From Lachnospiraceae bacterium (GTDB lineage: Bacteria > Bacillota > Clostridia > Lachnospirales > Lachnospiraceae): DNA of 20,863 bases. The notes under the pieces were generated by a model. The model was given only the letters and a program-made list of their open reading frames with translations. It did no database searches and was not told the origin of the DNA. The position numbers and the translations under genes are program-made. Positions 1,929 through 20,863 of the stretch are shown here, in pieces. Within the stretch, counting starts at the first letter, position 1. Each line of letters opens with the position of its first letter. The DNA is taken from the NCBI GenBank assembly GCA_003447295.1, contig DLZQ01000019.1, positions 6,583 to 27,445 on the forward strand, given 5' to 3'.

Positions 1929-1943
1929 AGTCTTAACTCCTCT

Positions 1944-2534: not shown

Positions 2535-2581
2535 AAAAACAGAGCTGTGGAAATTGGTTATTTCTCACAGCTCTGCTTTTT
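2535..2581. terminator. Bidirectional intrinsic terminator ending the pilus operon
   Basis: CAGAGCTGTG (2540-2549) pairs perfectly with CACAGCTCTG (2566-2575), and an inner GAAAT/ATTTC pair (2550-2554, 2560-2564) extends the stem past one bulged base. On the minus strand the stem is followed at once by five U residues (2539-2535). On the plus strand five U residues follow one base after the stem (2577-2581). It lies 24 bp past the stop codon of the last pilus-operon gene and insulates the toxin-antitoxin unit from it. Confidence 0.88.
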
Positions 2582-2604: not shown

Positions 2605-5600
2605 TTAATCCAGTTCGAACAGCTCCTGGGCGCTGATGGATAACTCAGCTATTCCGCAAGGAGTTACTTTTGATCCATTATCATACACGGTATAGACTCT
2701 TGCGTAGATCGTAGCTGCCTGCGCTCCTTCGTTCAAAATCGTCCCGGGAGTGTCGGTACGAAACAGTCCCATCTCATCCGAAGAATATTTCAAGGTATAG
2801 GTCGCGCCATTTGTAATCGGGTAACAATTCTGAACTCCATTGCGTTCTATCGGTGAAATTTCCTTTCCATTGCTATCCGTGATCTTGAGGCCATCCTCTC
2901 CATCCGTCTTTAAGCGCAATACCTTTCCTGTGATTCCGTCTACACTAATGGCTCCGGCCGTATCATCTGCACAGGATTTGTAAAATTCAACACATAACTG
3001 CTGTCCACCTGCCAGAATATTGTAGTCATCTGCCTGGAAGTTGACACTGATGGTTCCGTTATTCTTATCATCCAATACAATATGGTTGACCGGATCATAC
3101 AGCATATACACGGATTGGATCTTGCTGCCGCTTTTATCCTTAAAGCTTACGGAAGGTGCCGTCACACCGGCATTATACGCTGCAATCATCGTATTAACAA
3201 ACAGTTTGATCTCCGCGTCCTTAGTGGGTCTGGAATGTCCCGCTCCGGAATATGTCACATTTCCCATGGTATAGATATAATAATTATTTACCACATCATT
3301 GGGTGTGATGTTATAAATATTAGTATCTTTATAGTTACCGCTAGCCACACCGGAAATACAGTACCACACCACAATATCATTTTTACCGTCTCCGTTACGG
3401 TCCAGCTCCATATTCGGCTGTAACCACTGGTAATGCGTATTACTGATCTCTAACTGTTCCTTTGCAGATATCTGATAAGGATACTGCGTAATCTGCCCTT
3501 CATTTACCTGTGTTGCGATCAGCGAACTGCCTGCGTAATCACCCATCAGCAAATTACTGGGGTGGTTCCAATCAGGACCTTTTCCATTGTCATATCCAGC
3601 CTGTTTCAGCAATGAATTCTTAACAGGGAACCATACTTCCGAACTGTTTGTTGTCCGCAGATCTTCCAGATAGCTTCTCAGGAAACGGACTACCGTATAT
3701 TTAGTCAGACCTTCCTTTTGCATGAGATCATTATCCGAATTCGGTTCCTTAATCTCGTCAAAAGTATAGGACTTTAACGTGTTAAGATATTCCTGATCCC
3801 TCTTCTGTTCCTCTCCCGTTGAATTTTCAACTCTCTGCTGATAATACTCTTTCAATGCTCCATAGCGATCCAGGCCTACGGATGCACGAATGGTCTTATT
3901 GAATTCATATCCCCAATACCAGTAGTTCGTATTGTTATTTTCTGCATGTCCATCGTCATTCCACTGAATCGCACTTTTGATATTATTGACATATGAAGTA
4001 GTATCATGGGTGAACAAAATACTCTTGCCGGATTCTATGTAGTCTCTGACAGCCCAGCCAACAGCCAGATTCCTCTTAACATTATCCAACCTATTATAGT
4101 AAACATCACTTGCGCCATAGGTATATCCAAACCGGTAGGCGTCACCGAAGCCTAGTATCAACATATCATATTGCTGGAACAGATTGTAGGACTCCTGGTA
4201 TATCCTCTGTATATCAGTATCCGAAGTCCCGCTAATTTTCAGCTTATTATTTACAAGATTGGTTACTGTCATGCTGTCAATACTTACATTCCAGTCAGTT
4301 AACCCGTTAATGTAATTGGAAAAAGTAGAATCGTCATGAAGATTCCAGTTGTTACGGTTATCATCAGACAACAACTGCAATACACGGATTGTCTTTTTCC
4401 CACTTTGCTGCGGCACAGAGGTATAGCCTGACTTGGCAGTTCTCACCAGTCTGTCCGCATTATCATAAAATACCAGCTTCCATGGGATAACCCCTACATA
4501 TTCCTCCGGCAGAGCCCGGATCACACGATAGGTCTCCCCGGTACGCAATTCATATCTGTTTCCGTTTGCCGTTGCAATCGGATCAACCTTATTCCACTCA
4601 TCTCCCTTTCTTATATACACAGTAAGACCGCTAACTTCTTCCGATGACGTATATGTCTTACCCTCTACATAATCAGAGCCGGAGAAACGACCGTCTGCAT
4701 TTTTATCTACGAACAGTTTACAATCATAGGTAGTACCTGTCTGTGATATTGCAGCATCATTCTGCAGATTAAAAATATATTGCAACTGATATTTTCCGTC
4801 TATCTTCTTCAGTGAGCCACCGTTGCTGGCACCGTCCTGACCATTATATTCCAGTTCCTGCGGATATGCCGCTCCGTAAGTAGTTACCCAGTTGACGGAA
4901 AGCTTTGACAGATTCAGGTAATTACAAAATACTGATCTACGTGCAGATAATGTGGTTCCTAATTTAGGATCTGCTGTATTATCCATCAGCTGACTCTCTG
5001 TAAAAATATTTTTCTGCCAATATAAATACTGACCATTTTCATCTTTCAGAGCAAACTGAATCAGCTTGTAAAAATAAGAATTTTTGTCCAGCGTATCTGT
5101 TGATGCCTCAGGTATTTGATTGTCCCCATATTTAATAAACGTATCCGCAATGACCACCGGATATCCCGCCTCAATGAACTGACAGAATTCCTCATATCGG
5201 GTAGAGTTCATATCATTGCCGGGACCACGATAGACATCTGCACTCTTATTCGTTGGATCATCATCGTTAGTCTTACTGTGATCCAGCGAAGAATCCTGCA
5301 GTCTGTGCCTTGCATTATACGTCTCCCTAGCCTGCGTAACATTATCCGTTTTCGTTTTGGTGGCATAGTCATAGTAGTCTCCTACATGAGAATAAATCAA
5401 CCCTTTCATCTGTGGATCATTATACACAGTCACACCATTTTCTGTGTTCATCTTGCTGACCCGGGCTCCGAGATAGATCATGTCGTACTTTTCATTCAAG
5501 TCCTCGATCTTACCTATAAATTCCGCAGATGACATTTGTGTAATATTGATCGCAGATGCATCATAAATTCCGTTCATCCCCATCATATTGACCACATCAG

Positions 5601-8208
5601 TCTGCAACTTACTTTTTAACGTATCGCTAAAATCATAGCAGGGCTCCAGATCCAATACACGAATAGAGGATTTCACCGTGACTCTGTGCATGTACCAGTT
5701 CAGAATATATCTGGTCACGGATGCCTTGGTAATATTCTCCGCCAATTTATTGCCGCCCGAACCACTTTTGTCTGTCAGGAAATTTTCATACTGAATTTCC
5801 TTTTTCACTGCACTGTAAATCCATTGCTTGGAGCTGTCAATATCCGTCAGGTAATCAGAAGCCACATAAGGTTTGTTTCCTTCACTATCATCATACAGAT
5901 ATACATTCTCCGTCAGGAACTCTTTCAGTGCTCCCAAGGTCTTATCATTATATTTCTCTATCCCCGCCGTTTGTGCAAAGGATGTGAAAATAGTATTTAC
6001 CTTATCCTTATATGTTGTATCATCCAGGGCCTTTTCAAACATACTCTTACTTTTCACAATAGCTTTTGCAAGGCTCTTATCAGGGTCTGCCTCTGATACG
6101 CGCAACAAGGTCAGAACCAGATTAGTCATAGCCTTATGCTTAGCATCCGAATTTTTCTTATAAAATCCGTAATCTATGATAACCGGAACTCTTGCGGCAT
6201 CGGAACGATTCCCCTTATCGTCTGTAATGCCGAATACCATCTGTGCAATTTTACTTGCGGCATATTTCATATTTTTCGGTTCATCTCCGGAATAGTCACC
6301 CTTCCCGGATAGATAGATCAGATCCACATCATCTAGATCAACACCGCAATAGCTTTTATCAGCAGACACCTCTGGATTCGTCAGATCCGCCAGTTCCTGC
6401 AAAGTAAGTGTAGTCACTTCAATCTTTAATTTATCTACATCACCACTGACAGAGGCAGTACCTTCATACTTCCCTTCTCCTGATAAATTCAAAACCTGCT
6501 TTTTGAACCATTCTTTATTATTAATACCACCATTGTACCTGATGGTCTCCAGTGCATTTTCCCTGTCATCTCCGATAAAGTCATAGGTCTGTGCATTGTC
6601 GAACCCGGTATCTCCCTCTGTCTTTATCTCCACGCTGGAGGCAGTTACCCTAATATAGCTTCCTGTCTGGTTCTCGACATAACTGTCTTCTATCCGATAA
6701 TCACCATCTGTGCATAAAGTTGCATAAGATACATAATAATCACCGTTTTCCGTTACCTTAACAAAGTATGCATCTGCAATGGATTGAAAATTATATACCT
6801 TGTTAACAGAGTCCCAGACAGCCCATAATTTAGCCGGCTTTGAGTCATGATTCAGCAGATATAAGTTATTATCTACATTTTCACCCGATGCAGCATAGGT
6901 CTGTACCGGAGCAGCAGTATTCTCTTTTGCTGAAGACATCGCAGGTGCAGTAGCTGAAGTCTCCGATTTATATGACGGGTCATTGCCGGATGTCGTAGCT
7001 GCTAAATATGCCTTACTCTCCATACCTTCTGCCTGGTCTGCAGCTTCTGTCTGGTTTCCTGCTTCTGCCTGCACACCGGCTTCTAACTGGTTTTCTGCTT
7101 CTCCCTGCGCACCGGCTTCTGTCTGGTTTCCTACTTGTGCCTGTCCACCGGCTTCTGCCTGGCTTCCTGCTTGTGCCTGTCCACCGGCTTCTGCCTGGTT
7201 TCCTGTTTCCGTCTGCACACCGGCTTCTGCCTGGTTTCCTGTTTCCGTCTGCACACCAGTTTCTGCCTGGTTTCCTGCTTCCGTCTGTCCACCGGCTTCT
7301 GCCTGGTTTCCTGCTTCTTCCTGCTCTCCAGCTTCGATCTGTACCGAAGATGTCGTCAAGTTCTGTCCAGTCTCCGCTGCAGGGCGATATTCTTCAGGAA
7401 GATCTGCACCTTTTACAACAGTTCCCAGATATGTATAAGAATCCGCTGTTGCATTTTTCTGATACATTTCCAGATCAATATAATCCTTAACATCAAATTC
7501 CGATGTGGAAGAACCTGTGGGCACCGTCGTAGAAGTATCCAGTCCATAAGTGTTCTTCGTCTCAGCGACCGAACCATCACTCAGACGGATTTCCAATTGT
7601 CCACCCGTTCCGCTAATTCTAGAAAATGTCGGAATAATACTTTGTGCATCCCGGTTCAGCTCCGTTGCCTTAACCATCTCCGTATAGCGGGCATAGCGGG
7701 GCTCCGAAGTAGTCTCATTGTCATTCAGCTTACGATATGTTGCACCATGAAGTACATAATTATATCTACCGCCAACTCCTCGATAAACAAACCGTCCCTT
7801 CAGATTCTCGGAACGACTACCACTCTCTGCTTCCGTATATGGCGATACTGTAATCAGACCATTGGCTCCAACAATGTCACTTCCCGCATTTGTCGCAAGG
7901 TTCGCCATTGCATTCACTCTCTCGGACTGAGACGGCAGTTCTGACAGCTTCCTGCCACCGGCAACCGGTTCTTCTCCGCCTATGAGGTAGCCAATGCTGG
8001 CATTTTCTTTTGACGGAACAATCTCCAGAATATGAAAGGCATCTCCGGAAGACACCGTATCATATACTAATTTCTCAATTCCCGGGAGTGTCTTCTCCTG
8101 CGCCTTTACTTCCATAGAGCCATAGCTCTGGCAGACACCGGCTGCCAAAGCTATGGTAAGAATTCCTGCTATGTACTTTTTTGAGTTGCGTTTCCAATTC
8201 ATGGTCAT
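2605..8208 (-). CDS. Giant secreted protein of the pilus operon (1867 aa), candidate tip adhesin
   Basis: Unknown function; I associate it loosely with the DUF5057 proteins of Clostridia. A Sec signal peptide is visible (Lys/Arg-rich 6-11, hydrophobic 12-25, likely cut after Ala36). There is no LPXTG motif, C-terminal membrane anchor or prepilin motif. Residues about 290-395 are an acidic Gln/Glu/Ala/Gly hexapeptide repeat. Three regions share an alpha/beta pattern: FHILEIVP (58) with DLIYLSG (629) and VPVIIDYG (674); IRVLDLEP (849) with DMIYLGA (909) and YPVVIAD (1016); IRVLQLLS (1274) with DMLILGF (1348) and SILFTHD (1396). EF-hand-like loops lie at 1168-1179 and 1603-1611. The last 230 residues look beta-rich. 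The start ATG overlaps the upstream minor-pilin stop by 4 bp (ATGA) and has an AGGA site 8 nt upstream. The pilY1-like gene position suggests a pilus-associated surface protein; this is inference. Confidence 0.85.
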   Translation of the reverse strand: MTMNWKRNSKKYIAGILTIALAAGVCQSYGSMEVKAQEKTLPGIEKLVYDTVSSGDAFHILEIVPSKENASIGYLIGGEEPVAGGRKLSELPSQSERVNAMANLATNAGSDIVGANGLITVSPYTEAESGSRSENLKGRFVYRGVGGRYNYVLHGATYRKLNDNETTSEPRYARYTEMVKATELNRDAQSIIPTFSRISGTGGQLEIRLSDGSVAETKNTYGLDTSTTVPTGSSTSEFDVKDYIDLEMYQKNATADSYTYLGTVVKGADLPEEYRPAAETGQNLTTSSVQIEAGEQEEAGNQAEAGGQTEAGNQAETGVQTETGNQAEAGVQTETGNQAEAGGQAQAGSQAEAGGQAQVGNQTEAGAQGEAENQLEAGVQAEAGNQTEAADQAEGMESKAYLAATTSGNDPSYKSETSATAPAMSSAKENTAAPVQTYAASGENVDNNLYLLNHDSKPAKLWAVWDSVNKVYNFQSIADAYFVKVTENGDYYVSYATLCTDGDYRIEDSYVENQTGSYIRVTASSVEIKTEGDTGFDNAQTYDFIGDDRENALETIRYNGGINNKEWFKKQVLNLSGEGKYEGTASVSGDVDKLKIEVTTLTLQELADLTNPEVSADKSYCGVDLDDVDLIYLSGKGDYSGDEPKNMKYAASKIAQMVFGITDDKGNRSDAARVPVIIDYGFYKKNSDAKHKAMTNLVLTLLRVSEADPDKSLAKAIVKSKSMFEKALDDTTYKDKVNTIFTSFAQTAGIEKYNDKTLGALKEFLTENVYLYDDSEGNKPYVASDYLTDIDSSKQWIYSAVKKEIQYENFLTDKSGSGGNKLAENITKASVTRYILNWYMHRVTVKSSIRVLDLEPCYDFSDTLKSKLQTDVVNMMGMNGIYDASAINITQMSSAEFIGKIEDLNEKYDMIYLGARVSKMNTENGVTVYNDPQMKGLIYSHVGDYYDYATKTKTDNVTQARETYNARHRLQDSSLDHSKTNDDDPTNKSADVYRGPGNDMNSTRYEEFCQFIEAGYPVVIADTFIKYGDNQIPEASTDTLDKNSYFYKLIQFALKDENGQYLYWQKNIFTESQLMDNTADPKLGTTLSARRSVFCNYLNLSKLSVNWVTTYGAAYPQELEYNGQDGASNGGSLKKIDGKYQLQYIFNLQNDAAISQTGTTYDCKLFVDKNADGRFSGSDYVEGKTYTSSEEVSGLTVYIRKGDEWNKVDPIATANGNRYELRTGETYRVIRALPEEYVGVIPWKLVFYDNADRLVRTAKSGYTSVPQQSGKKTIRVLQLLSDDNRNNWNLHDDSTFSNYINGLTDWNVSIDSMTVTNLVNNKLKISGTSDTDIQRIYQESYNLFQQYDMLILGFGDAYRFGYTYGASDVYYNRLDNVKRNLAVGWAVRDYIESGKSILFTHDTTSYVNNIKSAIQWNDDGHAENNNTNYWYWGYEFNKTIRASVGLDRYGALKEYYQQRVENSTGEEQKRDQEYLNTLKSYTFDEIKEPNSDNDLMQKEGLTKYTVVRFLRSYLEDLRTTNSSEVWFPVKNSLLKQAGYDNGKGPDWNHPSNLLMGDYAGSSLIATQVNEGQITQYPYQISAKEQLEISNTHYQWLQPNMELDRNGDGKNDIVVWYCISGVASGNYKDTNIYNITPNDVVNNYYIYTMGNVTYSGAGHSRPTKDAEIKLFVNTMIAAYNAGVTAPSVSFKDKSGSKIQSVYMLYDPVNHIVLDDKNNGTISVNFQADDYNILAGGQQLCVEFYKSCADDTAGAISVDGITGKVLRLKTDGEDGLKITDSNGKEISPIERNGVQNCYPITNGATYTLKYSSDEMGLFRTDTPGTILNEGAQAATIYARVYTVYDNGSKVTPCGIAELSISAQELFELD
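7024..7341 (-). repeat. 18/36-bp tandem repeat encoding a Gln-Glu-Ala-Gly hexapeptide linker
   Basis: About 17 to 18 copies of an 18-bp unit encode x-Q-x-E-A/T-G, where x varies among Asn, Gly, Val and Ser. A higher-order 36-bp period is clear: the units at 7188-7223 and 7224-7259 are nearly identical, and 7152-7187 and 7260-7295 differ only slightly more. The unit length keeps the frame, so slippage would change linker length without breaking the gene. The stretch is acidic, lacks hydrophobic side chains apart from Ala/Val, and probably forms an extended spacer behind the first domain. Confidence 0.9.
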
Positions 8209-10742
8209 TTATTATCCTTCCTGTTCCAATAAATTACCAATGCTCGTTTGATCTCTAATTGATGTTCCAATCTAGGATCGCTAAAGGTCAGATACAACAT
8301 CTTACTGGACTCATTAGGCTGTATCGTAATCTGTAATTCTCCACCTTCTGTTGATATTGTAGATTTACTGACTTTTGTACCCGGATTTATCGGTTCATCC
8401 GCTTCTATTTTTGCGTCAAATTTCGTCAATCCAGCACCGTTCGTTGCCAACTGAGACTTTTGATCTACTGTGTTGGTATTTGCAAATCCATACATGTTGA
8501 TTATTATCGGGCAGGAATATAAGCCGGGATTTTCCCCGTTACCCCAATGCTGTTTTTTATCTTTTATAAGATTAATATCTATGTCTTCTCCCTGATTGAT
8601 AACCAGATATCTGTTTCCGTTGGGGAAATAAATGTTACATTGAGGGATCAATAATTCTGTTTCCGCTATGATCTTAATCGGCTTACCTTCCTCATTCAGT
8701 ACAATATTGGACCCGGTCGTCCCTTCCGGCACATCAATATATGCCTGTAGTTCCAGACGGTATTCCGTATTCATGTCAATATTATGCTTTGCCCATACAA
8801 ATACCTTTTGTCCGGTTGCGGAAGCACTGACTCTTCTTGTAGAGTTCGTCGAGTCATACTGACTGTTGCTGTTTCCATAGCTAAAATCAAAATTAAGTTC
8901 TCCATTAGCGTCATAATAATATTTACTGAACCCAACCAGTCTCTTTGATTGTTCATTAATATCCCACGCATGCTTCTCTGCTTCGTCTTTTTCAGCAAAA
9001 TACTCAGGTGCAAGTCCGTTTTCTCTGTCATTTGCAATGCGCCACTTTACCTGACTCGCATCTCCGGTATAGTTCACTAATTCGCATTCTACTCTTCCGT
9101 TCCTGAATAAGACAAACTGATCACTCTGGATATAAGGATTACTCTTCTTCTCCGTTGCCAGCAGATTCGGGATATGGATATCAATAGTCTTATACACGAT
9201 ATTATCTTTATCCAGTTTTATCCATGCTCCTACGGTAACCGTCTCATTCAAATGTGTTCCACATTCCAGAACAATCTGGTACGGATTTTTATCTTTTGTT
9301 TCCACAAATTGGTATCCGGAACTGTCACCATCTATTACCCATTCAATAATGGGATATCCATGTGCATAATCCGCCCAGGAGGTCAGACACTCAATAACCG
9401 CACAATAACCGATCTTACTATTATCATCGTACTCATAAGTAGTCAGTCTCTCTGCAATCAGTTCCACTGTATACTTTCCTTCGATCTTTGCCACGGTAAC
9501 ATATGCAGTGTCCGACATAGAAGGATCGGCTATGGAAGTACAGGTCACCCTCAGCACTCCGGCGCCCTGTTTTTCTGCAAATCCTGCCGTAAGTAATGCT
9601 TTCAGATCAGCAACCGCTCCCGTAGAAGCGATTCCGGTTCCTGACGCAAGTGCAGAACCGTCTTTTCTGGTTACGACCCAGTTGACTCCCTGATCAATGG
9701 CTGCCTGTTTTCCTGTCATGGTACAGCTGAATGCCAGTGTTCCGCCGGGCTTTACCTCACCGTCCTTGGGACTGATCACCAGAGAATCAATCTGTTGTGC
9801 TTTTACTGTCACCGTAGCCGTTGCCGCTATGGTAGGGTCTGCCACAGAAGTACAGGTCACCTTCAATATATTATCGCCAAAGTTCTCATCATCCGCTACG
9901 CTCAGTTTTCCATTTACATTGATGGTGCTCTTACATGCGCTGCCATCCTGCCTGCTGACTGACCATTCCACGCCCTTGGCTTTTGCTTCGGCTACTGCCT
10001 CAGAATCACCGGTAAATTCAAATGTAAATACCGCAGTCTGACCTTGTTTCAAATCCGCATGCGTCGGATTGATCTTCAATCCCGTGATCCACATATATGA
10101 TTCGCTGTTCTCTTTGGACAGATCATTTCTCAGCTTAATTGTCTCAGCGATGGTATATGTCTTCTCCATATACGCAAAGGTCATCTTGAGCACAACCTTC
10201 CGGGTTGTCTTGGCTTCGCTGATATCCACATTAAAAGAAGTCACATGTTCAGCCATTAATGCCGGCTTCACATCCTCTGCAGTCAGGTCACCCCAGACAA
10301 TGGTTTCATTGCCATCGGCATCTGTTGTCACTGAATTTTTAGCTTCATAGAGGTAAATCTGATTGGCAGTATCATAGCCGCTGCCGTCATCTCCCTGCCA
10401 GCGGATCATATAGACATTGTCATTGTTATACAGACGAAGCTCGCTGACATTCGTACTATTGATAACATTGCCGGAGGCATCCTGCGCCGGAGTACCATCC
10501 AATGCAACCGCTGCACCGGTGCTATCCAAAAACTGGATATCCTTCTCCACATCAATGATCAGGTCGATCATCTGATTTGCAGTCAGCTGTGCCTCTTCCT
10601 GCAGTGTCAATTCCTTGCTTCCGCGCAAATAGGAATTATTACCTGCAACGATAAAAGCACCGACAGATCCTGCAACGATCGTCATGATAGCCAAAGATAC
10701 AATGATCTCTACCAGTGTGAACCCTTTTTGTCCAATACGCAT
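8205..10742 (-). CDS. Large minor prepilin with two bacterial Ig-like domains (GspJ/PilW-like)
   Basis: 845 aa. The short leader MRIGQKG is followed by FTLVEIIVSLAIM, so PilD should cut after Gly7, leaving N-methylatable Phe and Glu at +5. The N-terminal helix with a Gln/Glu-rich amphipathic continuation (about 45-65) is typical of the PilW/GspJ class. After a pilin-like region (about 70-205) come two BIG2-type Ig-like repeats at about 220-314 and 318-419. They share the patterns I.P....(L/V)K.G.T, V.W.V.R.DGSA and (L/V)(K/R)VTCTS(V/I)ADP. The final 425 residues are unrecognised and apparently beta-rich. GGAGG overlaps the stop of the preceding gene and sets the ATG. It is translationally coupled by an ATGA overlap to the giant secreted protein, which suggests the two are made together. 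The J/W assignment rests on position and N-terminus. Confidence 0.88.
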   Translation of the reverse strand: MRIGQKGFTLVEIIVSLAIMTIVAGSVGAFIVAGNNSYLRGSKELTLQEEAQLTANQMIDLIIDVEKDIQFLDSTGAAVALDGTPAQDASGNVINSTNVSELRLYNNDNVYMIRWQGDDGSGYDTANQIYLYEAKNSVTTDADGNETIVWGDLTAEDVKPALMAEHVTSFNVDISEAKTTRKVVLKMTFAYMEKTYTIAETIKLRNDLSKENSESYMWITGLKINPTHADLKQGQTAVFTFEFTGDSEAVAEAKAKGVEWSVSRQDGSACKSTINVNGKLSVADDENFGDNILKVTCTSVADPTIAATATVTVKAQQIDSLVISPKDGEVKPGGTLAFSCTMTGKQAAIDQGVNWVVTRKDGSALASGTGIASTGAVADLKALLTAGFAEKQGAGVLRVTCTSIADPSMSDTAYVTVAKIEGKYTVELIAERLTTYEYDDNSKIGYCAVIECLTSWADYAHGYPIIEWVIDGDSSGYQFVETKDKNPYQIVLECGTHLNETVTVGAWIKLDKDNIVYKTIDIHIPNLLATEKKSNPYIQSDQFVLFRNGRVECELVNYTGDASQVKWRIANDRENGLAPEYFAEKDEAEKHAWDINEQSKRLVGFSKYYYDANGELNFDFSYGNSNSQYDSTNSTRRVSASATGQKVFVWAKHNIDMNTEYRLELQAYIDVPEGTTGSNIVLNEEGKPIKIIAETELLIPQCNIYFPNGNRYLVINQGEDIDINLIKDKKQHWGNGENPGLYSCPIIINMYGFANTNTVDQKSQLATNGAGLTKFDAKIEADEPINPGTKVSKSTISTEGGELQITIQPNESSKMLYLTFSDPRLEHQLEIKRALVIYWNRKDNK

Positions 10743-10752
10743 AGGAACCTCC

Positions 10753-11316
10753 TTACTTCGTCAGAATCTTTCCCGTCCTGCCGACAGTTGTAATCTCTAT
10801 AGTTCTGGAACCGTTTGTAACAACAATCCGCCTGCAATATTCCTTCTCGTGTCCACCGGCCTCATTCGTATTCTGCTCAAAAGCACCGGATGCCCGGTTA
10901 AATACCAGATGCAGACCTTTTTCACCGGGTGTTGCATAAGGGGTCTTTCCGTCTATTTTAGCTAATGTATACCCTGTTGCCGATGCTCCGTCCTCAAAAT
11001 ATACTTTAATATCGATCGGATCTTTTCCCACGATACGATCTGATACAAGGGTGCCTTTCTGATAGATTTTGGCATGATATTCCTTTCCTTCATAGGTCAG
11101 GACACATTCCACATCATTCTGCTCCTTGCCCAGCGTCAGTACTCTGGTTCTTTCGATCGTGGACACGATCTCATCTGCACATTTTTTTACTTTTCTGCCT
11201 GTCAACGAAGACGCCGATATCGCCATCACTCCTACCAGAATCGCCATAATCGCGATCACGATAATCAGTTCTACCAGCGAAAAACCTCCGTTATTACTTT
11301 TTCTGCCAGTTCTCAT
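10753..11316 (-). CDS. Minor pseudopilin, GspH/FimT-like
   Basis: 187 aa from the ATG at 11316. Gly11 is followed by FSLVELIIVIAIMAILVGVM, a class-III prepilin signal with Glu at +5. Its size and the post-helix pattern, a basic RKVKKCADEI segment followed by strands, fit the GspH/FimT/FimU minor pilins that help prime fibre assembly. The C-terminus IEITTVGRTGKI also fits that class. It overlaps the end of the 814-aa gene by 23 bp in another frame, so it is probably coupled. The start is ambiguous: GGAG at 11329-11332 lies 12 nt before this ATG but only 6 nt before an in-frame TTG at 11322, which would add two residues. The pilin signal is unaffected. Confidence is high for prepilin and moderate for the H subclass. 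Confidence 0.88.
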   Translation of the reverse strand: MRTGRKSNNGGFSLVELIIVIAIMAILVGVMAISASSLTGRKVKKCADEIVSTIERTRVLTLGKEQNDVECVLTYEGKEYHAKIYQKGTLVSDRIVGKDPIDIKVYFEDGASATGYTLAKIDGKTPYATPGEKGLHLVFNRASGAFEQNTNEAGGHEKEYCRRIVVTNGSRTIEITTVGRTGKILTK

Positions 11317-13738
11317 ATACAATCAGTTCTCCAAGCTTTATATCACTGTTTATGTATGCCTTGCCATCTGAATGGAGATAGCCTTCTCCACCCTTTAAAA
11401 ACTGTGCTACGGAATACTCTGTCTCAGTTATTCCCGCTTTATTGGAATAAGTCATTACATGTAATACCGCATCACGGTCAGGTTCCACATTGACATTCTG
11501 TCCCAGCGTAATGTTTCCTCCAGCCAGTATGGTTCCGTGGAAGTTACTGCTCACTTTTACATTTCCGGTAGCAATGATCAGGCCACGGAAATTTTCCGCG
11601 GAAGTATATTCATAATCTCCCTGAACCACTACTGCTTTATATTCCGAATCCGCACCGGTAAAATATTTTGCACCGGACTTATCTACAATATTAGTGTCAG
11701 CTCTTACAACTCCCCAATAGGTCAGAATCTTTCCTTCATTCACCAGATTGGTGTAGGCATTTGCTGTATCAGCAGTCTCTAAAGGCAATAATTGCTCGTA
11801 ACTGTCTATCATCTTCTTAGACAAAGCCTTAAATTTGCTCTGATCTGCGGTAAGCAGAGCCTGGTATCCCACATTATTTTTATCGGTTCCCAGTGTAGAA
11901 GGATGAAGCTCTGCGGAATGATCCTCACTACATACCAAATTTCCGGATAAATGCATGATATAAGCTCCGGATGAGGCTTCTCGCACCTTGACCGCCTTGG
12001 TATACAGGCTGGCATACGCATCCATTGTTTCTTTATTTACGCTATAATAATCCTGATAATACCGTGCCGCATTGGTTCTGCCTTCTTCTGTTGTACTGTC
12101 AAAAGCGACATAATAATAAACCAATGTAATTTTGCTGTTAATGCGTTTAAAGTACTTCTGCACATTACTGCTGTTTAACCCATAAGAAGCCAGTGTATTT
12201 CCGTTTAATGCCGTACAAGGCACATCAAATACTACCTCCCTCACACCGTCTCTTACTTTTTTATTTGACTGGTCCCAGATCAGATCATAATACTGTTCTT
12301 TCGTCACCGGATTACTGGATCCTCCCAGAACAGACTTGCCGGAAGCATCCAATGCAATACACTGTGCCGGGATCAGATATGCCAACTGATCACTCTTCAC
12401 AGCTATGGACTGCCCCATCATAATATCTTTCACACCGGTATTCAGAGCTGCATCTTCTCCGGACAGACCGGACTTCGCCGTGTTCAATGAAATATAGGAA
12501 TTTCCCGCCAGTGTCAGATTGCGAAGTTCATTCAGATATATCTCCGTATCTGTTCCATTCACGATCACTGCACTGTTATCCGCATTATTGCGTCCCGTAC
12601 CAAATCCAATATATTGACCGGTATATTCTCCGTCTATCAGTGTTCCTGCTTTAAAATTATTCCGCTGACCATCCATCCTCAGATCTCCGGCTACATAAAT
12701 ACTATTACCGGCAAAATCAATTTTTCCCACGCTTGCCGTATTATTACCGCCGCCGTGCATCCGTATGGTTCCTGCCCATAGTTCTCCGTATTGGTCACTT
12801 GTCAGAGTGGCTCCTCTTCCCAGATACAGATCCTTCGCCACTACCATTCGTTTATCTGCATTTTCATTGCCTGCAGTTTCCTGTAAATTCACCGTTACCC
12901 CGGTACCATTTTCGGTATTCGCTTCTTCACTTCCAATAATAAGCCTGTCAGCGTAAAAGCTTCCACCGATGGTATTATTGCTCAAATTCATAGGCGCATC
13001 GGGAATGACCTGAATATTGTTCTGTGCGACCATGGAAATTCCGGTGATGGACGGAAGTGTTACTGCCTGTGCAAATTCCATATCCGGAAGCTTGACTCTA
13101 AGATCTGTCTGGATCACAGAGACATACCCTGCATCATCCGTATAAGTAACTTTCAAATTGCAAAAGGACAGACCATCTGTATACAGCTTCAGATCTCCCT
13201 TAGGGATTCCACTCCAGGTAGGATCTCCTTCCTTCTCCTGAATGAGATTACCGGAAGTATCCTGATAGACACGATAAGTATCTGTTCCTCTGACAGCCTC
13301 AAGCACTGTGTTCTGTGCCAACGCTGTATCAGCACTGATATAGTTATACAGCTTGGTCAGATCATATACCGTAGTATCATCCGCCTTATAATATTCCTGC
13401 ATACTACTTAAAAAGTAATATCTCATTTTAGAATTCTTCTGCTCTTCGGATGTCGATTCAAAGCTCTCCAGTACCTTCGTGTAGGCTCCTGATACAGAGG
13501 CGGAAATCTGCCCTTCCATCCCCATCCGGATCTCGTCCAGCACAGTCTCCGCAGAATAAAAGTTATCCTTTGCCTGCAGGTTGTTGGCCTTCATCTGATA
13601 ATTTAACAGAGACATATACATCAAAACACTGGCTAAAATGCCAATAAAGGCCATAGCTATGATCACAACGACCATAGCCGAGCCCTTATTCGCAGCTTCT
13701 TTATGATTTTTTTCAAAATGTCTCCGGAATATATTCAT
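11294..13738 (-). CDS. Atypical large minor pilin, PilX/GspK-like, lacking Glu5
   Basis: 814 aa. A basic leader ends in NKG (17-19), followed by SAMVVVIIAMAFIGILASVLMYMSL. The presumed cleavage is after Gly19, but position +5 of the mature protein is Val instead of the near-universal Glu. GspK/PilX-class tip pseudopilins share this exception. The following NNLQAKDNFYSAETVLDEIR resembles the PilX N-terminal family, where helix alpha-1 continues with a YxAE motif. Residues about 250-430 and 735-785 are rich in short strands with Gly/Asn turns (for example GLIIATGNVKVSSNFHGTIL), suggesting a beta-solenoid such as in PilX-associated or bactofilin-like proteins. It starts 18 bp after the I-like minor pilin gene with a GGAAG-type ribosome site. 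It is far larger than GspK (about 320 aa) or PilX (about 170-200 aa). The fold of the body is inferred. Confidence 0.85.
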   Translation of the reverse strand: MNIFRRHFEKNHKEAANKGSAMVVVIIAMAFIGILASVLMYMSLLNYQMKANNLQAKDNFYSAETVLDEIRMGMEGQISASVSGAYTKVLESFESTSEEQKNSKMRYYFLSSMQEYYKADDTTVYDLTKLYNYISADTALAQNTVLEAVRGTDTYRVYQDTSGNLIQEKEGDPTWSGIPKGDLKLYTDGLSFCNLKVTYTDDAGYVSVIQTDLRVKLPDMEFAQAVTLPSITGISMVAQNNIQVIPDAPMNLSNNTIGGSFYADRLIIGSEEANTENGTGVTVNLQETAGNENADKRMVVAKDLYLGRGATLTSDQYGELWAGTIRMHGGGNNTASVGKIDFAGNSIYVAGDLRMDGQRNNFKAGTLIDGEYTGQYIGFGTGRNNADNSAVIVNGTDTEIYLNELRNLTLAGNSYISLNTAKSGLSGEDAALNTGVKDIMMGQSIAVKSDQLAYLIPAQCIALDASGKSVLGGSSNPVTKEQYYDLIWDQSNKKVRDGVREVVFDVPCTALNGNTLASYGLNSSNVQKYFKRINSKITLVYYYVAFDSTTEEGRTNAARYYQDYYSVNKETMDAYASLYTKAVKVREASSGAYIMHLSGNLVCSEDHSAELHPSTLGTDKNNVGYQALLTADQSKFKALSKKMIDSYEQLLPLETADTANAYTNLVNEGKILTYWGVVRADTNIVDKSGAKYFTGADSEYKAVVVQGDYEYTSAENFRGLIIATGNVKVSSNFHGTILAGGNITLGQNVNVEPDRDAVLHVMTYSNKAGITETEYSVAQFLKGGEGYLHSDGKAYINSDIKLGELIVYENWQKK

Positions 13739-13756
13739 GGTTCTCTTCTTCCTTCC

Positions 13757-15088
13757 CTACTGTGTCACTGTTCCCGTCATAGTGATCACCGGGTTTTTCG
13801 TACCTATGGTACCTTGTGCATATACCTGTACCGTAATATCATACATACGATCAATCTTCTCTGAAGGCGGGGTCAGTCCGCTAGCTGACATAATCGACTT
13901 TGCATCAGCTCCCGTTGCTGTTCCTGCCGCTTCAGACACACTCAGATTTCGGAATTTGTAGTCTGTATATCCGTTCAGTATCAGGTTGGTTCTTAACTTA
14001 CATGCTGACTGGATCGATGCACCCGCAGATGACATCCAGCCGGGATAGCTCTCCCGAAGTTCATAAGCCACACGATATGTATTGTTGATCATATCCCGGT
14101 AAGCCGTTTCCGCATTTGTCACCCCGGCAGGTAATTCGTCTGTTGTAGGCAATTGCATCACAAGATACAAATTGGTCTCTACATTATCCGGATTGTTTAC
14201 AATGACTGTATCTCTGACCTCACTACCGGATACGCTTCCCATACGCGTAGGGAGACACACAACAATATTCGCCAGATCAGATATCACTTTACTCTGTACA
14301 GCCGCGCCGGCTTCCTTCTGTGCCTTGATCTGTGCCGCCTGTCTTCTCACCGTGTCTTCATTGGAAAAGATCACATAATCCGTGCCGTTCTGCGGATAAT
14401 CACCACTCAGAGAAGGGTTGTTAAAAATACTGGTGTCGCAGTGATATCGCGTTAATGCAGTCACCAGATATACATCGGTCTCCAATGTCTCCCCATCCCC
14501 CAGATCCAGACTGATCCGGTTGGTGTCTATTGTGATTTCCACTATTTTTTTAACATATTTCGGAATATTTTCCAGCGCAGTATTCGTTGCATAATTGGAA
14601 AAATACAAATATGCCCCGATATCTGAATCCGCTTTCTCCGAGTACACAGCATTCAGATTGCCTGCAAGATTCTGTATATCGATCAGGTCTTTCTCATTGA
14701 TAGTCGTATAAGCAGAAGGATCCAGCGTAGTCACCACATCATACGCTCCGGATGTAGTGCTGCTGTTACGAAATGTATATACCCATTCCAGGTCACCATC
14801 GCTGTCGATATCTTCTCCGCGTTTTACCGTGTTGGTAAAGCCTTCCACACTCGCTGCTTCGTAAGTATCTGCCATTTCCCCTAAAGTGTGCGCTTCAAAC
14901 TGTTCCATCACATCTTCGGCAATTGCTGTTGCATGCATGGTATTGCGTGATTTCGCATTTGTTCTGGCTGATGTAACGAAGCTGTGCAGCAGTGGTACCA
15001 CTATGATTGACAGGATCACAATAGCGATCAGAAGCTCCACCAGGGAAAAGCCTTCATTATTCAGTTGTTCTTCCTTGGCATGCTTCAT
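13757..15088 (-). CDS. Minor prepilin, GspI/PilV-like
   Basis: 443 aa. Leader of 13 residues ending in NEG, then FSLVELLIAIVILSIIVVPL with Glu at +5. The mature helix continues SFVTSARTNAKSRNTMHATAIAEDVMEQFEA, a pattern of PilV/GspI-type minor pilins, where the segment after the membrane helix contains ATxxAExxME. The remaining 350 residues form an unrecognised extracellular domain much larger than the usual PilV (about 150-200 aa). It has an Asp-rich turn DIDSDGDLEW (about 93-102) that could bind calcium. It follows pilO by 10 bp, with GAGGAG overlapping the pilO stop. In Clostridioides difficile the gene after pilO is likewise pilV. Prepilin status is near certain; the exact subclass is moderate. 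Confidence 0.88.
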   Translation of the reverse strand: MKHAKEEQLNNEGFSLVELLIAIVILSIIVVPLLHSFVTSARTNAKSRNTMHATAIAEDVMEQFEAHTLGEMADTYEAASVEGFTNTVKRGEDIDSDGDLEWVYTFRNSSTTSGAYDVVTTLDPSAYTTINEKDLIDIQNLAGNLNAVYSEKADSDIGAYLYFSNYATNTALENIPKYVKKIVEITIDTNRISLDLGDGETLETDVYLVTALTRYHCDTSIFNNPSLSGDYPQNGTDYVIFSNEDTVRRQAAQIKAQKEAGAAVQSKVISDLANIVVCLPTRMGSVSGSEVRDTVIVNNPDNVETNLYLVMQLPTTDELPAGVTNAETAYRDMINNTYRVAYELRESYPGWMSSAGASIQSACKLRTNLILNGYTDYKFRNLSVSEAAGTATGADAKSIMSASGLTPPSEKIDRMYDITVQVYAQGTIGTKNPVITMTGTVTQ

Positions 15089-15098
15089 ACTAATCTCC

Positions 15099-15851
15099 TC
15101 ACTCTACATTTCCAAAAAGAGTGTCTACTCCCATACCCATTGCAGGAATATCAGGCTCACTGTATACCTTATCTGTACCTAACAGATAATAGGTATTCAG
15201 CGTCATATTACCGGACAGCATTCCTACCGCTTCATTATAGCTGATATTTACACCCTGAATGCTCTTACGCTCCTGCAGGTTATAAATATATCTCACCAGT
15301 CCCTTAAAATCGTCATAGGTACATTCAATGCTGATGCTCAAAGGCACCTCATACATATGAGTGTCAGCATAAGCAGTTCCTTCTGTCGTAACAGGGCTAT
15401 CGGTTACTGTCGTATCAGCTGTGGCAGTCGCATCTGATGCAGCCGCTGTTCCGTCTGTTGCTGCCGCTGTTCCATCTGTTGCTGCCGCTGTTTCTGCTGC
15501 ATACGGTACCTCTGCCTCTGTTCCAAATGCGATATTCGCTACGTCCGTGCGAGTATAATCCTCTAATGTCTTCACCATCATGATGCTGTCTTCCGGTAAA
15601 ATATCTGCCGGGAAACGATTCTCGAATCCGGTAATATATGACTGCATCTTTTCGGTAGCCTCCAGATAATCTGCCTTACGCTGCTCCAATATCTCAAGCG
15701 TAGATACCTGGGATCTCAGGGATGCATTCTGCGTCTCTATCGTCTCCGACATATCATTAAACTTCGCATATACCAGGAAATAAGTCACCACGGCCAGAAG
15801 GACTCCCAGTACAGCAATCAAAAGTTGGATTTCGCTTTTCTTTACTTTCAT
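15099..15851 (-). CDS. pilO: PilO-like inner-membrane alignment protein
   Basis: 250 aa with one N-terminal membrane helix (about 9-27), a coiled-coil segment (about 31-75, NDMSETIETQNASLRSQVS) and a C-terminal ferredoxin-like PilO core (about 166-225, with HMYEVPLSISIECTYDDFKGLVRYIYNL). PilO partners PilN in the T4P alignment complex that links cytoplasmic PilM to the pilus machinery; the core faces outside the membrane. An Ala/Thr/Asp-rich insert (about 118-163) with 7-residue repeats separates the coiled coil half from the core. It begins 13 bp after pilMN with GGAGG overlapping the upstream stop. The length is slightly above usual because of the insert. The call is secure from topology, motif and gene order. 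Confidence 0.88.
   Translation of the reverse strand: MKVKKSEIQLLIAVLGVLLAVVTYFLVYAKFNDMSETIETQNASLRSQVSTLEILEQRKADYLEATEKMQSYITGFENRFPADILPEDSIMMVKTLEDYTRTDVANIAFGTEAEVPYAAETAAATDGTAAATDGTAAASDATATADTTVTDSPVTTEGTAYADTHMYEVPLSISIECTYDDFKGLVRYIYNLQERKSIQGVNISYNEAVGMLSGNMTLNTYYLLGTDKVYSEPDIPAMGMGVDTLFGNVE
15429..15491 (-). repeat. 21-bp tandem repeat in pilO
   Basis: Three 21-bp units encode TAAATDG, TAAATDG and TAAASDA (residues 121-141). The first two differ at a single base (GAT versus GAC). The repeat lies in the linker before the PilO core and keeps the frame, so copy-number change would only alter linker length. Confidence 0.85.
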
Positions 15852-15864
15852 CTTCCCCTACCTC

Positions 15865-17550
15865 CTACTGTACTGTCAGAGTGTCAGTCTGTTCTGCACT
15901 CTCGTCTGTCAAAGCTTTATAGGTGCCTGTAATAGAAAAAGTAACGGTTGAATTGCCAGCTTCGTCCTTGGTGTCTGTAATACCGCTGATCTGTACATCC
16001 TCGATGCTCTGCATATTGCGGATATTCAGAATCGTTCTCGCTGCCGCAGCCTTACCTCCCACAGTTACAGACATGCTGATTCCCGTCTGATCCGAACTAA
16101 AGCTGTTGGTCCAGAAGCTGTCCGGTAATATCTGTTCCAGTTCGTTAATGAACTCTACAAGATTCTCGTTAGGTGTCTCAGTATATGCATACAGGTACTC
16201 ATATTTATCATACTGTGCTGCCGCTGAGAGATATTCATTATATACCGTCTGCGCGGGTTGTAATTCCTCAACCCTCGCCTGCAGAGCCACATTCTCTGCC
16301 ACGGTGCCGAAGTATCTGGTCAGGGAAGTAACTGCCATGGCGATGGACAGGATCACGCCCAGTACCAGGACCGCCACACTGACGAAGGTGTAGTTCGTGC
16401 CGCTGACTACGGTCATGCCCTTGCCCTTCTGCTGGCTCTTATCGATCAGTCCCACGGGGGCAAGTACTGCGCCCAGGCAGGAAATATAGGCTGCGGGTCT
16501 GGTGGAACGGATGGCCTTGCTCATACCGATCTTGTCATCCATATCGGACAAGGTATGTACCTTGCGCTCCAGGCAGTTGGTGAACAGCTTGCTCATACCG
16601 CTGAAGCTGCCGCCGAGGCCGGTGACGTAAGTTCTCTCAATAGGTGTATTACTGTTTCTGGAATCATAGAAATCAATGACACGGCTGACGCCGACGATCA
16701 GGGGCTCCAGAGAAGAGGTGATCTTCTGTCTTGCTGCTGTGACTTCCGCATTGCCGGCATCTTCGTCTTCCCAGCGTCCGGCATTTTCCTCCCAGAGCTT
16801 ATCTCCCTGATGGAGTACTCTGTTCAGGCAGGTCTTCTTCTGGAAACGCTCTACCGCGCTCATGGGATCGTTCACGGCATAGGCACCGGATGCGATCATA
16901 GTCTCAATGGCATCCTGCACGCCGTATGCCACAGTTCTCTGTAGCAGCACCTTGCCGGCGGAAAGCACGGTCACGATGGTGCTGTTCTCATCGATCTTGA
17001 TCATCATGGTAACTTTTTCGGACTTCTCATCACGCAGGATCTGGTATAAACTGTTGCTGCTGTAATCGAAGCACTCAACCTCCCAGCCGCACATCTGCGC
17101 CAGCTGGTAATAGCTGTCTAACAGCGCCTTGGGCACTGCCAGTGCCATGACACGCAGCTTTCCTTCCTCGGTCAGTCCGCCTGCCAGATAATGTCCGATC
17201 TCATACTGGGTCAGATCCACGGGGAAATAATCGTTCGCGTTGGTCTTCACCAGTGCCTCGATCTTGTTCGCCTTCACGTTCGGGATCTGTACCTCACGGC
17301 TCGCCACTCTGGTAGAAGAAATGGTGAAGATCACTCTCTTCGTGCGGATACCGTTCGTACCCAGTGCGTTCACCAGGTGATCCGCATACTCCTGCGTCGG
17401 CTGCAGCATACCGTCCACCACGACGCCTTCCGGGGTCTCGACGGTCAATACCTTGTAGACCTTCGGTTTCTTCACCTTATAGTCGATCTCGCAGATCTTC
17501 GTAAAGGAGTTACCGATCTCAATACTCAATACGCGATTGTTCATTGCCAT
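15865..17550 (-). CDS. pilMN: PilM-PilN fusion protein
   Basis: 561 aa. Residues about 6-370 form a PilM domain, an actin-like/FtsA-like ATP-binding fold. It starts with VLSIEIGNSFTKICEID (phosphate-1 loop) and includes VTGLGGSFSGM, the adenosine-loop type motif. PilM is normally about 350 aa and binds the N-terminal tail of PilN on the cytoplasmic side. Here a membrane helix (about 387-411) follows directly, then a short coiled coil (VAENVALQARVEELQ) and a PilN-like ferredoxin-fold region to about 555. The protein therefore carries PilM and PilN in one chain across the membrane. A comparable pilMN gene is known in C. difficile. The ATG has GGAAGGG 7 nt upstream. GC is high over the PilM part, about 60% in a sampled stretch, compared with about 34% in sampled pilA. 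PilO follows 13 bp downstream. Confidence 0.93.
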   Translation of the reverse strand: MAMNNRVLSIEIGNSFTKICEIDYKVKKPKVYKVLTVETPEGVVVDGMLQPTQEYADHLVNALGTNGIRTKRVIFTISSTRVASREVQIPNVKANKIEALVKTNANDYFPVDLTQYEIGHYLAGGLTEEGKLRVMALAVPKALLDSYYQLAQMCGWEVECFDYSSNSLYQILRDEKSEKVTMMIKIDENSTIVTVLSAGKVLLQRTVAYGVQDAIETMIASGAYAVNDPMSAVERFQKKTCLNRVLHQGDKLWEENAGRWEDEDAGNAEVTAARQKITSSLEPLIVGVSRVIDFYDSRNSNTPIERTYVTGLGGSFSGMSKLFTNCLERKVHTLSDMDDKIGMSKAIRSTRPAAYISCLGAVLAPVGLIDKSQQKGKGMTVVSGTNYTFVSVAVLVLGVILSIAMAVTSLTRYFGTVAENVALQARVEELQPAQTVYNEYLSAAAQYDKYEYLYAYTETPNENLVEFINELEQILPDSFWTNSFSSDQTGISMSVTVGGKAAAARTILNIRNMQSIEDVQISGITDTKDEAGNSTVTFSITGTYKALTDESAEQTDTLTVQ

Positions 17551-17648: not shown

Positions 17649-18404
17649 CTAATGATACAGACCCAGATACCACTGTAAGAATTCATTGCCCCACAGAACA
17701 GCGACTGCCACCCCTGCGGAGAGATACGGTCCCATGGCGAGGACATGCCCTTCGCCGCTTACTTTCATACGGATCAGATGGATCACGGAACCAATGATAC
17801 ATCCCAGTAAAAATGCGAAAATGATCAATTTCCAGCCGAGCAGCAGTCCACAGACCGCCATCAGCTTCACATCACCGCCGCCAATGGCTCTGCCACCGGT
17901 AGCGTAGTACAGAATAAGTAAAAATACACTGACACACAGGAAGCCGATCAGAAAATCCAGCCACTGTGTATAGTGGAAGACTCCATGGATCAGCCCCAGT
18001 GCCAGTATAAATAAGTTAAATCCCACAGGGATCTCATATGTTCTGAAATCAATCACACTTAAAGCAAGAAGTGCACTAAACAACAAGCAGTAGACTAGGG
18101 AATCCACGCTCATCCCATACTTCCAGAATACGAGCAGGTACAGCACTCCGTTCAGTGCCTCGATGATGGGGTACTGAGCGGAGATATGTGCCTTGCATTT
18201 CCGACATCTGCCTCCCAGCGCCAGGTAGCTGAACAGCGGTACGAGGTCGTACCACCGCAGCTGATAATCGCAGTTCATGCAGTGAGACCTGGTCGTTACA
18301 ATATTCTCTTTTTTCGGGATACGGTAGATCAACACATTGAGGAAGCTACCGATCACGATTCCGTAAAGGAAAATCACTATGTAGAGTAAGATTGCTGGGA
18401 GCAT
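17649..18404 (-). CDS. pilD: Type IV prepilin peptidase / N-methyltransferase
   Basis: 251 aa polytopic membrane aspartic protease that removes the leader of prepilins and methylates the new N-terminus. GSFLNVLIYRIP (19-30) opens the N-terminal domain. Two CxxC pairs (Cys42/Cys45 in HCMNC and Cys67/Cys70 in GRCRKC) form the zinc site of the methylase half. The catalytic aspartates are Asp119 in VIDFRTYEIP and Asp178 in GGGDVKLM, the GxGD motif. About seven further hydrophobic helices follow the usual pattern and the length is typical. It lies 19 bp after pilA, and AAAGG precedes the ATG. Its substrates should be PilA and the minor pilins of this operon. All key residues are present. Confidence 0.96.
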   Translation of the reverse strand: MLPAILLYIVIFLYGIVIGSFLNVLIYRIPKKENIVTTRSHCMNCDYQLRWYDLVPLFSYLALGGRCRKCKAHISAQYPIIEALNGVLYLLVFWKYGMSVDSLVYCLLFSALLALSVIDFRTYEIPVGFNLFILALGLIHGVFHYTQWLDFLIGFLCVSVFLLILYYATGGRAIGGGDVKLMAVCGLLLGWKLIIFAFLLGCIIGSVIHLIRMKVSGEGHVLAMGPYLSAGVAVAVLWGNEFLQWYLGLYH

Positions 18405-18423: not shown

Positions 18424-18864
18424 TTATTTAATTTTATCATATGTGGTTTTTGCTGTTGTACCTAATTCAGGATACAAATCCGTAGCAGCAGTAGCAGCGG
18501 CAGAAGCGGTACCATAGGCAATATGTACAATATTGTTACTATCAATTGAATAATAGAATTTTGCACCACTAACTTTCTTAACAGCAGGTACTGCACTAAC
18601 CAATGTAGTTGTAACCTCATTATAAGTTCCATCAGATACATAAGTTGCAGTTTTGGTTCCAGCTTCAACATCAGCAATTGCAACTCCAATTTCAGTTGCT
18701 AAAGACTGAGCATTCTGAACATCAGTGGATTGTTTTGACTTTTCAACATATCCAATATACTGAGGTGCTAAAACACCAATCAGGACTGCCATAATGGCAA
18801 TAACGATGATCAGCTCTACCAGGGAGAAACCTTTGTTTGTTAAGTTCTTCTGTTTCTTGTTCAT
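18424..18864 (-). CDS. pilA: Major type IV pilin
   Basis: 146 aa. Leader of 12 residues ending in NKG, then FSLVELIIVIAIMAVLIGVLAPQY with Glu at +5 and the Pro kink near +22, the classic PilA/PulG helix. The head domain (about 45-146) is short, Ala/Thr-rich and has no cysteine pair; it would be held by a beta-sheet only. It lies between pilC and pilD, with AAGGAG 9 nt before the ATG. The gene is separated from pilC by 104 bp with a strong hairpin, so its message may be handled separately. Sampled stretches are about 33-35% GC, clearly lower than neighbouring pilMN and pilB, which suggests allele replacement or relaxed codon use. The major pilin role follows from size, position and N-terminus. 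Confidence 0.93.
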   Translation of the reverse strand: MNKKQKNLTNKGFSLVELIIVIAIMAVLIGVLAPQYIGYVEKSKQSTDVQNAQSLATEIGVAIADVEAGTKTATYVSDGTYNEVTTTLVSAVPAVKKVSGAKFYYSIDSNNIVHIAYGTASAAATAATDLYPELGTTAKTTYDKIK

Positions 18865-20183: not shown

Positions 20184-20191
20184 GTGCCTTC

Positions 20192-20196
20192 CCTCC
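20192..20196 (-). promoter_or_regulatory. Ribosome binding site deciding the pilC start
   Basis: GGAGG on the minus strand, 8 nt before the ATG at 20183. The alternative upstream TTG (20198) overlaps it and has no ribosome site of its own. Confidence 0.75.
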
Positions 20197-20270
20197 AATT
20201 ACGTCTCTATCTTTAACTGTCTCCCCAACCATGTAAGACGGGCCCCGGTCCTAAAAAGGTCCAGGTTTTT

Positions 20271-20326: not shown

Positions 20327-20863
20327 TTATACGTCAAAGGATACCTTTACCATCTCGGAGAAGGAGGTGGTGCCATCCAGTACGTAGTCCGTGGCACTCA
20401 TACGCAGGGTATGCATTCCTTCTTTTAATGCTTCTTCCTTTAAGATATCGGCACCTTCCCGCTTGCTGATAATGGTCTTCAGCTTCGGAGTGATCTGCAT
20501 GATCTCGTAGACACCGATACGGCCCTTAAATCCGGTATTGTCGCATTTGCTGCAGCCGCAGGGTTCGTAGATGGTTACATTTTCCTCTTCCTTCAGCCCC
20601 ATGAATTCTTTTTCATCCCTGGTGGCCTGCTTCGGCTTCTTACAGAAGGGACAGAGTCTGCGGACCAGTCGCTGTGCGATAACGCCGATGACGGAATCTG
20701 CGATCAGGTAGGATTCGATACCCATATCCTCCAGTCGGGTGATGGTGCTGGCGGATGAGTTGGTATGCAGGGTACTTACGACCAGGTGTCCGGTGATGGA
20801 TGCCTGTACGGCGATGCTGGCGGTCTCCTGGTCACGGATCTCACCGATCATGATGATATCCGG
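20327..20863 (-). CDS. pilB: Type IV pilus assembly ATPase PilB, C-terminal part (5' end cut by window)
   Basis: The last 178 codons of a GspE/PilB secretion ATPase are visible; the frame is open to the window edge. The visible part begins [14 protein letters not shown], the Walker B region with the characteristic Arg finger segment. It is followed by [12 protein letters not shown] (His box) and the tetracysteine zinc motif (CPFC at 71-74 and CSKC at 104-107 of the visible part) typical of PilB/GspE and absent from the retraction ATPase PilT. RIGVYEIM and a helical end follow. It is a hexameric cytoplasmic motor driving pilus extension on PilC. pilC begins 143 bp downstream. The N-terminal domain and Walker A are outside the window. 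Confidence 0.94.

Follow-up and report, generated by a model that had tools for sequence, protein, structure and literature searches.

The giant secreted protein whose gene closes a run of type IV pilus genes in a Lachnospiraceae bacterium is, by analogy with known tip complexes, probably a non-pilin tip effector of the Lachnospiraceae pilus, most plausibly an adhesin, and a counterpart of PilY1 that is of separate origin. The window, i.e. the whole stretch of DNA analysed (20,863 nt of Lachnospiraceae bacterium GCA_003447295.1, contig DLZQ01000019.1, positions 6,583 to 27,445, forward strand), carries this run on its minus strand, as recognized from open reading frames (ORFs) and Pfam matches. 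Its features are, in gene order and in window coordinates:

20327..20851, minus strand: pilB-type ATPase gene, partial (3' part), off the window edge (ORF matching ATPase ORFs of other loci)
18969..20198, minus strand: pilC platform protein (T2SSF, E 3e-65)
18424..18864, minus strand: major pilin, 146 aa (N_methyl, E 1.7e-7)
17649..18404, minus strand: pilD prepilin peptidase (PF06750 and PF01478)
15865..17550, minus strand: pilM-pilN fusion in one ORF (PilM_2, E 2.1e-15; PilN, E 2.2e-6)
15099..15851, minus strand: pilO (PilO, E 0.0028, sub-threshold; position)
13757..15088, minus strand: 443-aa minor prepilin, I-like (PilV/GspI), Glu5 present (PilV, E 4.1e-7; GspI, E 2.3e-6; both below cut-off)
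11294..13738, minus strand: 814-aa minor prepilin, K-like (PilX/GspK), no Glu5 (weak PilX_N match, E 0.036)
10753..11322, minus strand: 187/189-aa minor prepilin, H-like (FimU/GspH), Glu5 present (GspH model, E 4.6e-5, below cut-off)
8205..10742, minus strand: 845-aa minor prepilin, J-like (PilW/GspJ position), Glu5 present (N_methyl, E 4.6e-7; residue 5)
2605..8208, minus strand: giant secreted protein of the DUF5057 family, 1867 aa, candidate tip effector (ORF; PF16480; ATGA overlap)
5659..8208, minus strand: N-terminal half of the giant, residues 1-850, signal peptide followed by a region variable in discrete alleles
7043..7335, minus strand: 36-bp (12-aa) repeat in the giant, 8.1 copies, low-complexity linker
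2608..5658, minus strand: C-terminal half of the giant, residues 851-1867, constant where the N-terminal halves of relatives differ
4003..5217, minus strand: DUF5057 domain, residues 998-1402 (Pfam)
4672..4707, minus strand: DxNxDGxF calcium-loop-like motif of the giant, residues 1168-1179
2608..2625, minus strand: conserved extreme C-terminal tail of the giant (ELFELD), candidate docking strand
2535..2580, minus strand: intrinsic terminator 3' of the giant gene (hairpin and T run)

The five genes at the 3' end of the run (443, 814, 187, 845 and 1867 aa) have the coordinates and sizes originally claimed for them when checked as ORFs, and the small prepilin measures 189 aa from a TTG and 187 aa from the next ATG. 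The last six genes follow each other at short or negative spacings, and the 845-aa prepilin gene is joined to that of the signal-peptide protein by an ATGA overlap, as had been stated. The same gene order is found in two Lachnospiraceae contigs, which together with the 75 of 83 further loci described below indicates that the arrangement is not due to chance. The terminator proposed behind the giant gene is real as judged by its folding energy against shuffled sequences: the hairpin (approximately 2580-2535, with T run) reaches -26.2 kcal/mol (z -8.6), and none of 200 shuffles was equally stable; it is missing from the list of our consensus scan, which takes loops of 3-8 only. Immediately beyond the terminator, at window positions 1605-2276, lie the genes of a RelE-like toxin and of an HTH/MqsA-like antitoxin, a pair missing at the equivalent place in loci L001 and L002. 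A 131-aa ORF at 1167-1562, which has no Pfam match of its own, resembles the remnant of a gene of the YhgA-like transposase family (PF04754), whose counterpart in L001 (15466-16359) is 297 aa long.

The assignment of the four minor prepilins to H-, I-, J- and K-like types is based on sub-threshold NCBIfam scores and on Glu5. N_methyl (PF07963) recognizes the 443-aa (E 8.2e-7), 189-aa (E 9.2e-8) and 845-aa proteins, and the NCBIfam models, all below cut-off, place the 443-aa protein with I and the 189-aa protein with H, the 845-aa protein leaning weakly towards J. Using a simple cleavage-site rule to find residue 5 of the mature protein, Glu5 was present in 96/96 H-like, 93/94 I-like (the single exception is a misparsed ORF) and 97/97 J-like proteins and in none of 95 K-like proteins, or none of 103 once eight further loci were added. 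In the sections cited, the absence of Glu5 from K is described as what distinguishes the subunit at the very tip (PMC9934059, PMC7541494). Judged by sequence, the four prepilins thus represent a complete H/I/J/K-type tip set in a monoderm pilus. Such a set alone is not new for Clostridia, because a PilU-PilV-PilK tip complex has already been proposed for Clostridioides difficile in the part of the work cited (PMC9556784).

The original prediction also called the minor pilins unusually large. K-like pilins have a median of 809 aa in 104 complete genes, and the sizes of J-like ones are bimodal: among 105 loci, 69 are shorter than 350 aa, 10 measure 350-599 aa and 26 at least 600 aa. The J-like pilin of the window gives weak Ig-like scores. 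K-like pilins share a conserved YxNWxK-like C-terminal stretch (Trp at -4 and Asn at -5 in 44/95 each). At loci L134, L141 and L150 we noted prepilins of 2475, 1396 and 1117 aa, respectively, in operons with small giants or none, as if pilins and separate heads were trading places.

The giant belongs to the DUF5057 family (PF16480; E 3.9e-45, 155.3 bits against a cut-off of 27.9), for which Pfam records no function and whose name was not found in the literature searched; a collection search with the window giant as query reported 1740 proteins at E <= 0.001. Its N-terminus is predicted to be a type I, Sec-type signal peptide and not that of a prepilin: by simple rules, 88 of 89 giants start with a hydrophobic stretch and 87 have a small-residue cleavage-like site. 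Neither LPxTG (none in the giants) nor a C-terminal transmembrane-like stretch (0/89) was found. We considered the giant as a modular pilin, with a class III signal peptide and a Glu5-type helix, and rejected this on account of its Sec-like N-terminus and the missing N_methyl match. A D.[DN].DG loop occurs in 58 of 84 giants, compared with 8.8 on average after shuffling, and D1168 is among the few invariant positions in 25 divergent giants. The extreme C-terminus is conserved as well. In 83 de-duplicated giants Leu occupies position -2 in 78, Leu position -5 in 64 and Phe position -4 in 59, and the combined LFxLD-like pattern forms the very end of 59/83 giants versus 0.23% of positions anywhere, which makes this tail a candidate docking strand.

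Variation is concentrated in the other half of the protein. We compared 151 relatives among the matches listed in two best-first lists of mixed sources, in which frequencies carry no meaning; in 139 of these listed relatives all three C-terminal regions are at least 75% identical to the window giant. The N-terminal half is common to 86 of the 139, while 41 depart from it in residues 651-850 only (52-53% identity there) and keep 89-95% over residues 46-290. The other 12 are dissimilar along the whole of residues 46-850, with 45-48% over residues 46-290, and fall into two classes that share only about 47% identity. No intermediates between the three N-terminal identity patterns were found among the 139 listed relatives; the variation therefore resembles cassette exchange more than drift, and the N-terminal halves look like they have been exchanged as cassettes.

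Across 397 genomes from the family to which the genome of L001 belongs, PF16480 was detected in 80 and a K-like pilin in 107, or 100 after removal of seven weak matches (E 1e-5 to 1e-3; G327, G333, G346, G424, G470, G474, G656). Both occur together in 75 genomes, PF16480 alone in 5, the K-like pilin alone in 25 and neither in 292, so that a K-like pilin is present in 75/80 DUF5057 genomes compared with 25/317 others (Fisher odds ratio 175, p 2e-52, the p-value being only indicative because related genomes are not independent). In three of the genomes with PF16480 only (G333, G528, G616) the locus is cut at a contig end. Of 83 main giant loci, 75 lie right behind same-strand minor pilins, 6 at contig edges and 2 elsewhere; all four pilin types are found upstream in 72 of the 75, and the nearest pilin ends a median of 18 bp before the giant starts (within 100 bp in 71/75, overlapping in 11). 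The giant gene therefore sits at type IV pilus loci and not mostly away from them, the latter being the outcome set beforehand as speaking against the original prediction. Off the minor pilins are L069, a 652-aa form behind pilB-pilC, and L061, next to what we take to be a YifB/ComM-like gene. The 83 do not include L121-L123, which are loci from a search of the class, or L124-L126, which are secondary DUF5057 hits, weak or partial; neither L124-L126 nor the weak class-level L123 lies in an operon of this kind, and in L121 and L122 pilins adjoin the giant. In the class at large, a match was found in only 6 of 291 sampled genomes. The linkage of giant and minor pilins is thus a trait centred on Lachnospiraceae and not general for Clostridia.

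All 25 genomes with a K-like pilin only were inspected. Six encode a divergent giant recognized by a profile of our own; L128 and L148 encode a large protein with an N-terminal LEIVP-type motif, with the C-terminal tail at least in L148; three contain another large ORF, and 14 have no giant after J, one of these loci (L132) ending at a contig edge. With 14 of 25 lacking a giant, its slot is usual, not obligatory. Two further arrangements were observed. L092 encodes tandem giants (1633 and 1661 aa) behind a single minor-pilin set, and MT838087.1 (L155), a 5.7-kb scaffold labelled "Bacteriophage sp.", codes for minor pilins of the K-, H- and J-like types together with the first part of a giant and is a mislabelled bacterial pilus fragment.

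The giant also diverges together with the pilins. For 52 loci we correlated its distances with those of each partner, given PilC distances, and obtained partial r of 0.52 for I, 0.45 for K, 0.33 for H, 0.32 for J, 0.29 for PilO and 0.14 for PilM; at equal column numbers the values were 0.43, 0.33, 0.33, 0.32, 0.24 and 0.10, respectively. Taken as a group, the minor pilins follow the giant more closely than PilM does and, by a smaller margin, than PilO does. At equal columns the excess of K over H and J vanishes, and the data therefore do not single out K.

Among the closest known systems is PilY1/PilC (PF05567) of diderm type IVa pili, with FimU-PilV-PilW-PilX. According to the sections cited, a large non-pilin bearing a type I signal peptide is encoded there too alongside H/I/J/K pilins, of which the K member, PilX, lacks Glu5. 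PilY1 attaches to the minor pilins through its conserved C-terminal domain, and its N-terminal domain is variable (PMC7541494) and forms the outward head of the tip (PMC7541494, PMC13190605). Strand complementation between PilX and PilY1 has been predicted (PMC13190605), and the conserved C-terminal part, variable N-terminal part and EF-hand-like loop are shared with the giant as far as these sources describe them (PMC7541494, PMC13190605, PMC4471445). The giant differs in its DUF5057 match in place of a propeller family match and in its monoderm host, and its location at the tip is predicted. In the PilA-PilB-PilC system of Streptococcus sanguinis, another monoderm pilus, and the best-studied one, with bulky tip subunits and large minor pilins with grafted parts, the part cited places the adhesive modules within the pilins and says that PilC/PilY1 is absent in monoderms (PMC9934059); in contrast, the window encodes a separate non-pilin giant behind a full H/I/J/K-type set. 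PilV-PilU-PilK of C. difficile are likewise proposed tip-complex pilins of a Gram-positive pilus, but no giant non-pilin partner is named in the part cited, and "PilY1" does not occur in its main text (PMC9556784).

In the mechanism that we propose, Sec would export the giant, as read from its sequence signal. From there on we infer that the C-terminal half, perhaps its last LFxLD-like strand by strand addition, binds the minor-pilin complex at its K/I end, that the giant caps this complex and helps to prime the pilus, and that the capped complex is carried to the tip, with the variable N-terminal half facing outward and contacting surfaces, glycans or other cells. We count in favour of a tip effector the gene order, the co-occurrence, the set with a K pilin lacking Glu5, the Sec signal, the absence of any detected anchor, the constant C-terminal and allelic N-terminal halves and the conserved tail. 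Counted against it are the 14 of 25 K-only genomes that lack a giant, the off-operon loci L061, L069 and L123-L126, the poor AlphaFold models, the co-variation that does not single out K and the best-first origin of the allele sample, and also that most of the same signals would be expected from a secreted, released protein. Of the original proposal that the giant fills the PilY1 role, the slot behind an H/I/J/K-type set (75/83 loci) is borne out for Lachnospiraceae, on which the trait is centred.

The chief rival, which we regard as unlikely while taking it seriously, is that of a secreted or surface protein, co-expressed with the pilus, which needs the pilus machine and is not a stable tip subunit, for example a substrate recognized by the H/I/J/K tip in the manner of type II secretion, or a factor for wall passage or retraction. 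Minor pseudopilins of type II secretion systems recognize substrates by the same H/I/J/K platform in the account cited (PMC10191384), co-transcription alone would preserve synteny, and retention of the giant on pili is something that we infer. However, a monoderm has no outer membrane to be crossed by type II secretion, the gene is single and invariably beside the tip pilins, with which it co-diverges, and a docking end is suggested by a C-terminal half that stays constant while the N-terminal half can be swapped, and by the fixed C-terminal tail. That the giant gene rides along in the operon without any connection to the pilus would fit the off-operon copies L061, L069 and L124 and the 14 K-pilin operons that manage without it, but is very improbable given the odds ratio over 397 genomes and a position that hardly changes among proteins sharing only about 20% identity.

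Models of the giant are poor (AlphaFold pLDDT 60.9 for residues 846-1867 and 45.6 for residues 39-880). The fold matches listed for the weak model of residues 846-1867 are mostly Ig-like sandwiches, and its predicted element order comprises alternating strands and helices plus such sandwiches; those listed for the weak model of residues 39-880 contain nothing useful. At this quality of model, the failure to find a beta-propeller carries no weight against one. By sequence, no relative of solved structure was found. A true, very remote homologue of PilY1, to which the shared slot, type of signal peptide, N-variable/C-constant layout and calcium-loop-like motif could point, is very improbable, since PF16480 is the only Pfam match of the giant at E up to 1, PF05567 being absent as the original remark on lacking obvious kinship implied (the 0/397 genomes with PF05567 show nothing by themselves, as no control genome matched either), no PilY1 structure appears among the profile hits at E up to 10 or among the fold matches listed for the weak model of residues 846-1867, and the predicted C-terminal half mixes alternating strands and helices with Ig-like sandwiches.

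A tip effector of separate origin would bear on the current picture of these pili, in which, according to the parts of the field reviews cited, the PilY1 tip effector is absent in monoderms and tip adhesion is accomplished by modular pilins (PMC9934059, PMC10191384). A description of the giant's family at pili was not found in the literature searched, which mostly excludes subscription papers. We see about even chances that the H/I/J/K complex is a general platform capped by unrelated giants, PilY1 in diderms and in Lachnospiraceae a DUF5057 protein held by its tail and with N-terminal halves as allelic cassettes, which in gut commensals might serve to bind glycans, hosts or other bacteria, or to evade phages. 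If the giant is indeed a tip effector, the tip platform would be reused with different heads in a major gut family, DUF5057 would gain a first testable function, and the giant would be a variable surface protein that may let common gut commensals select the partners they associate with.
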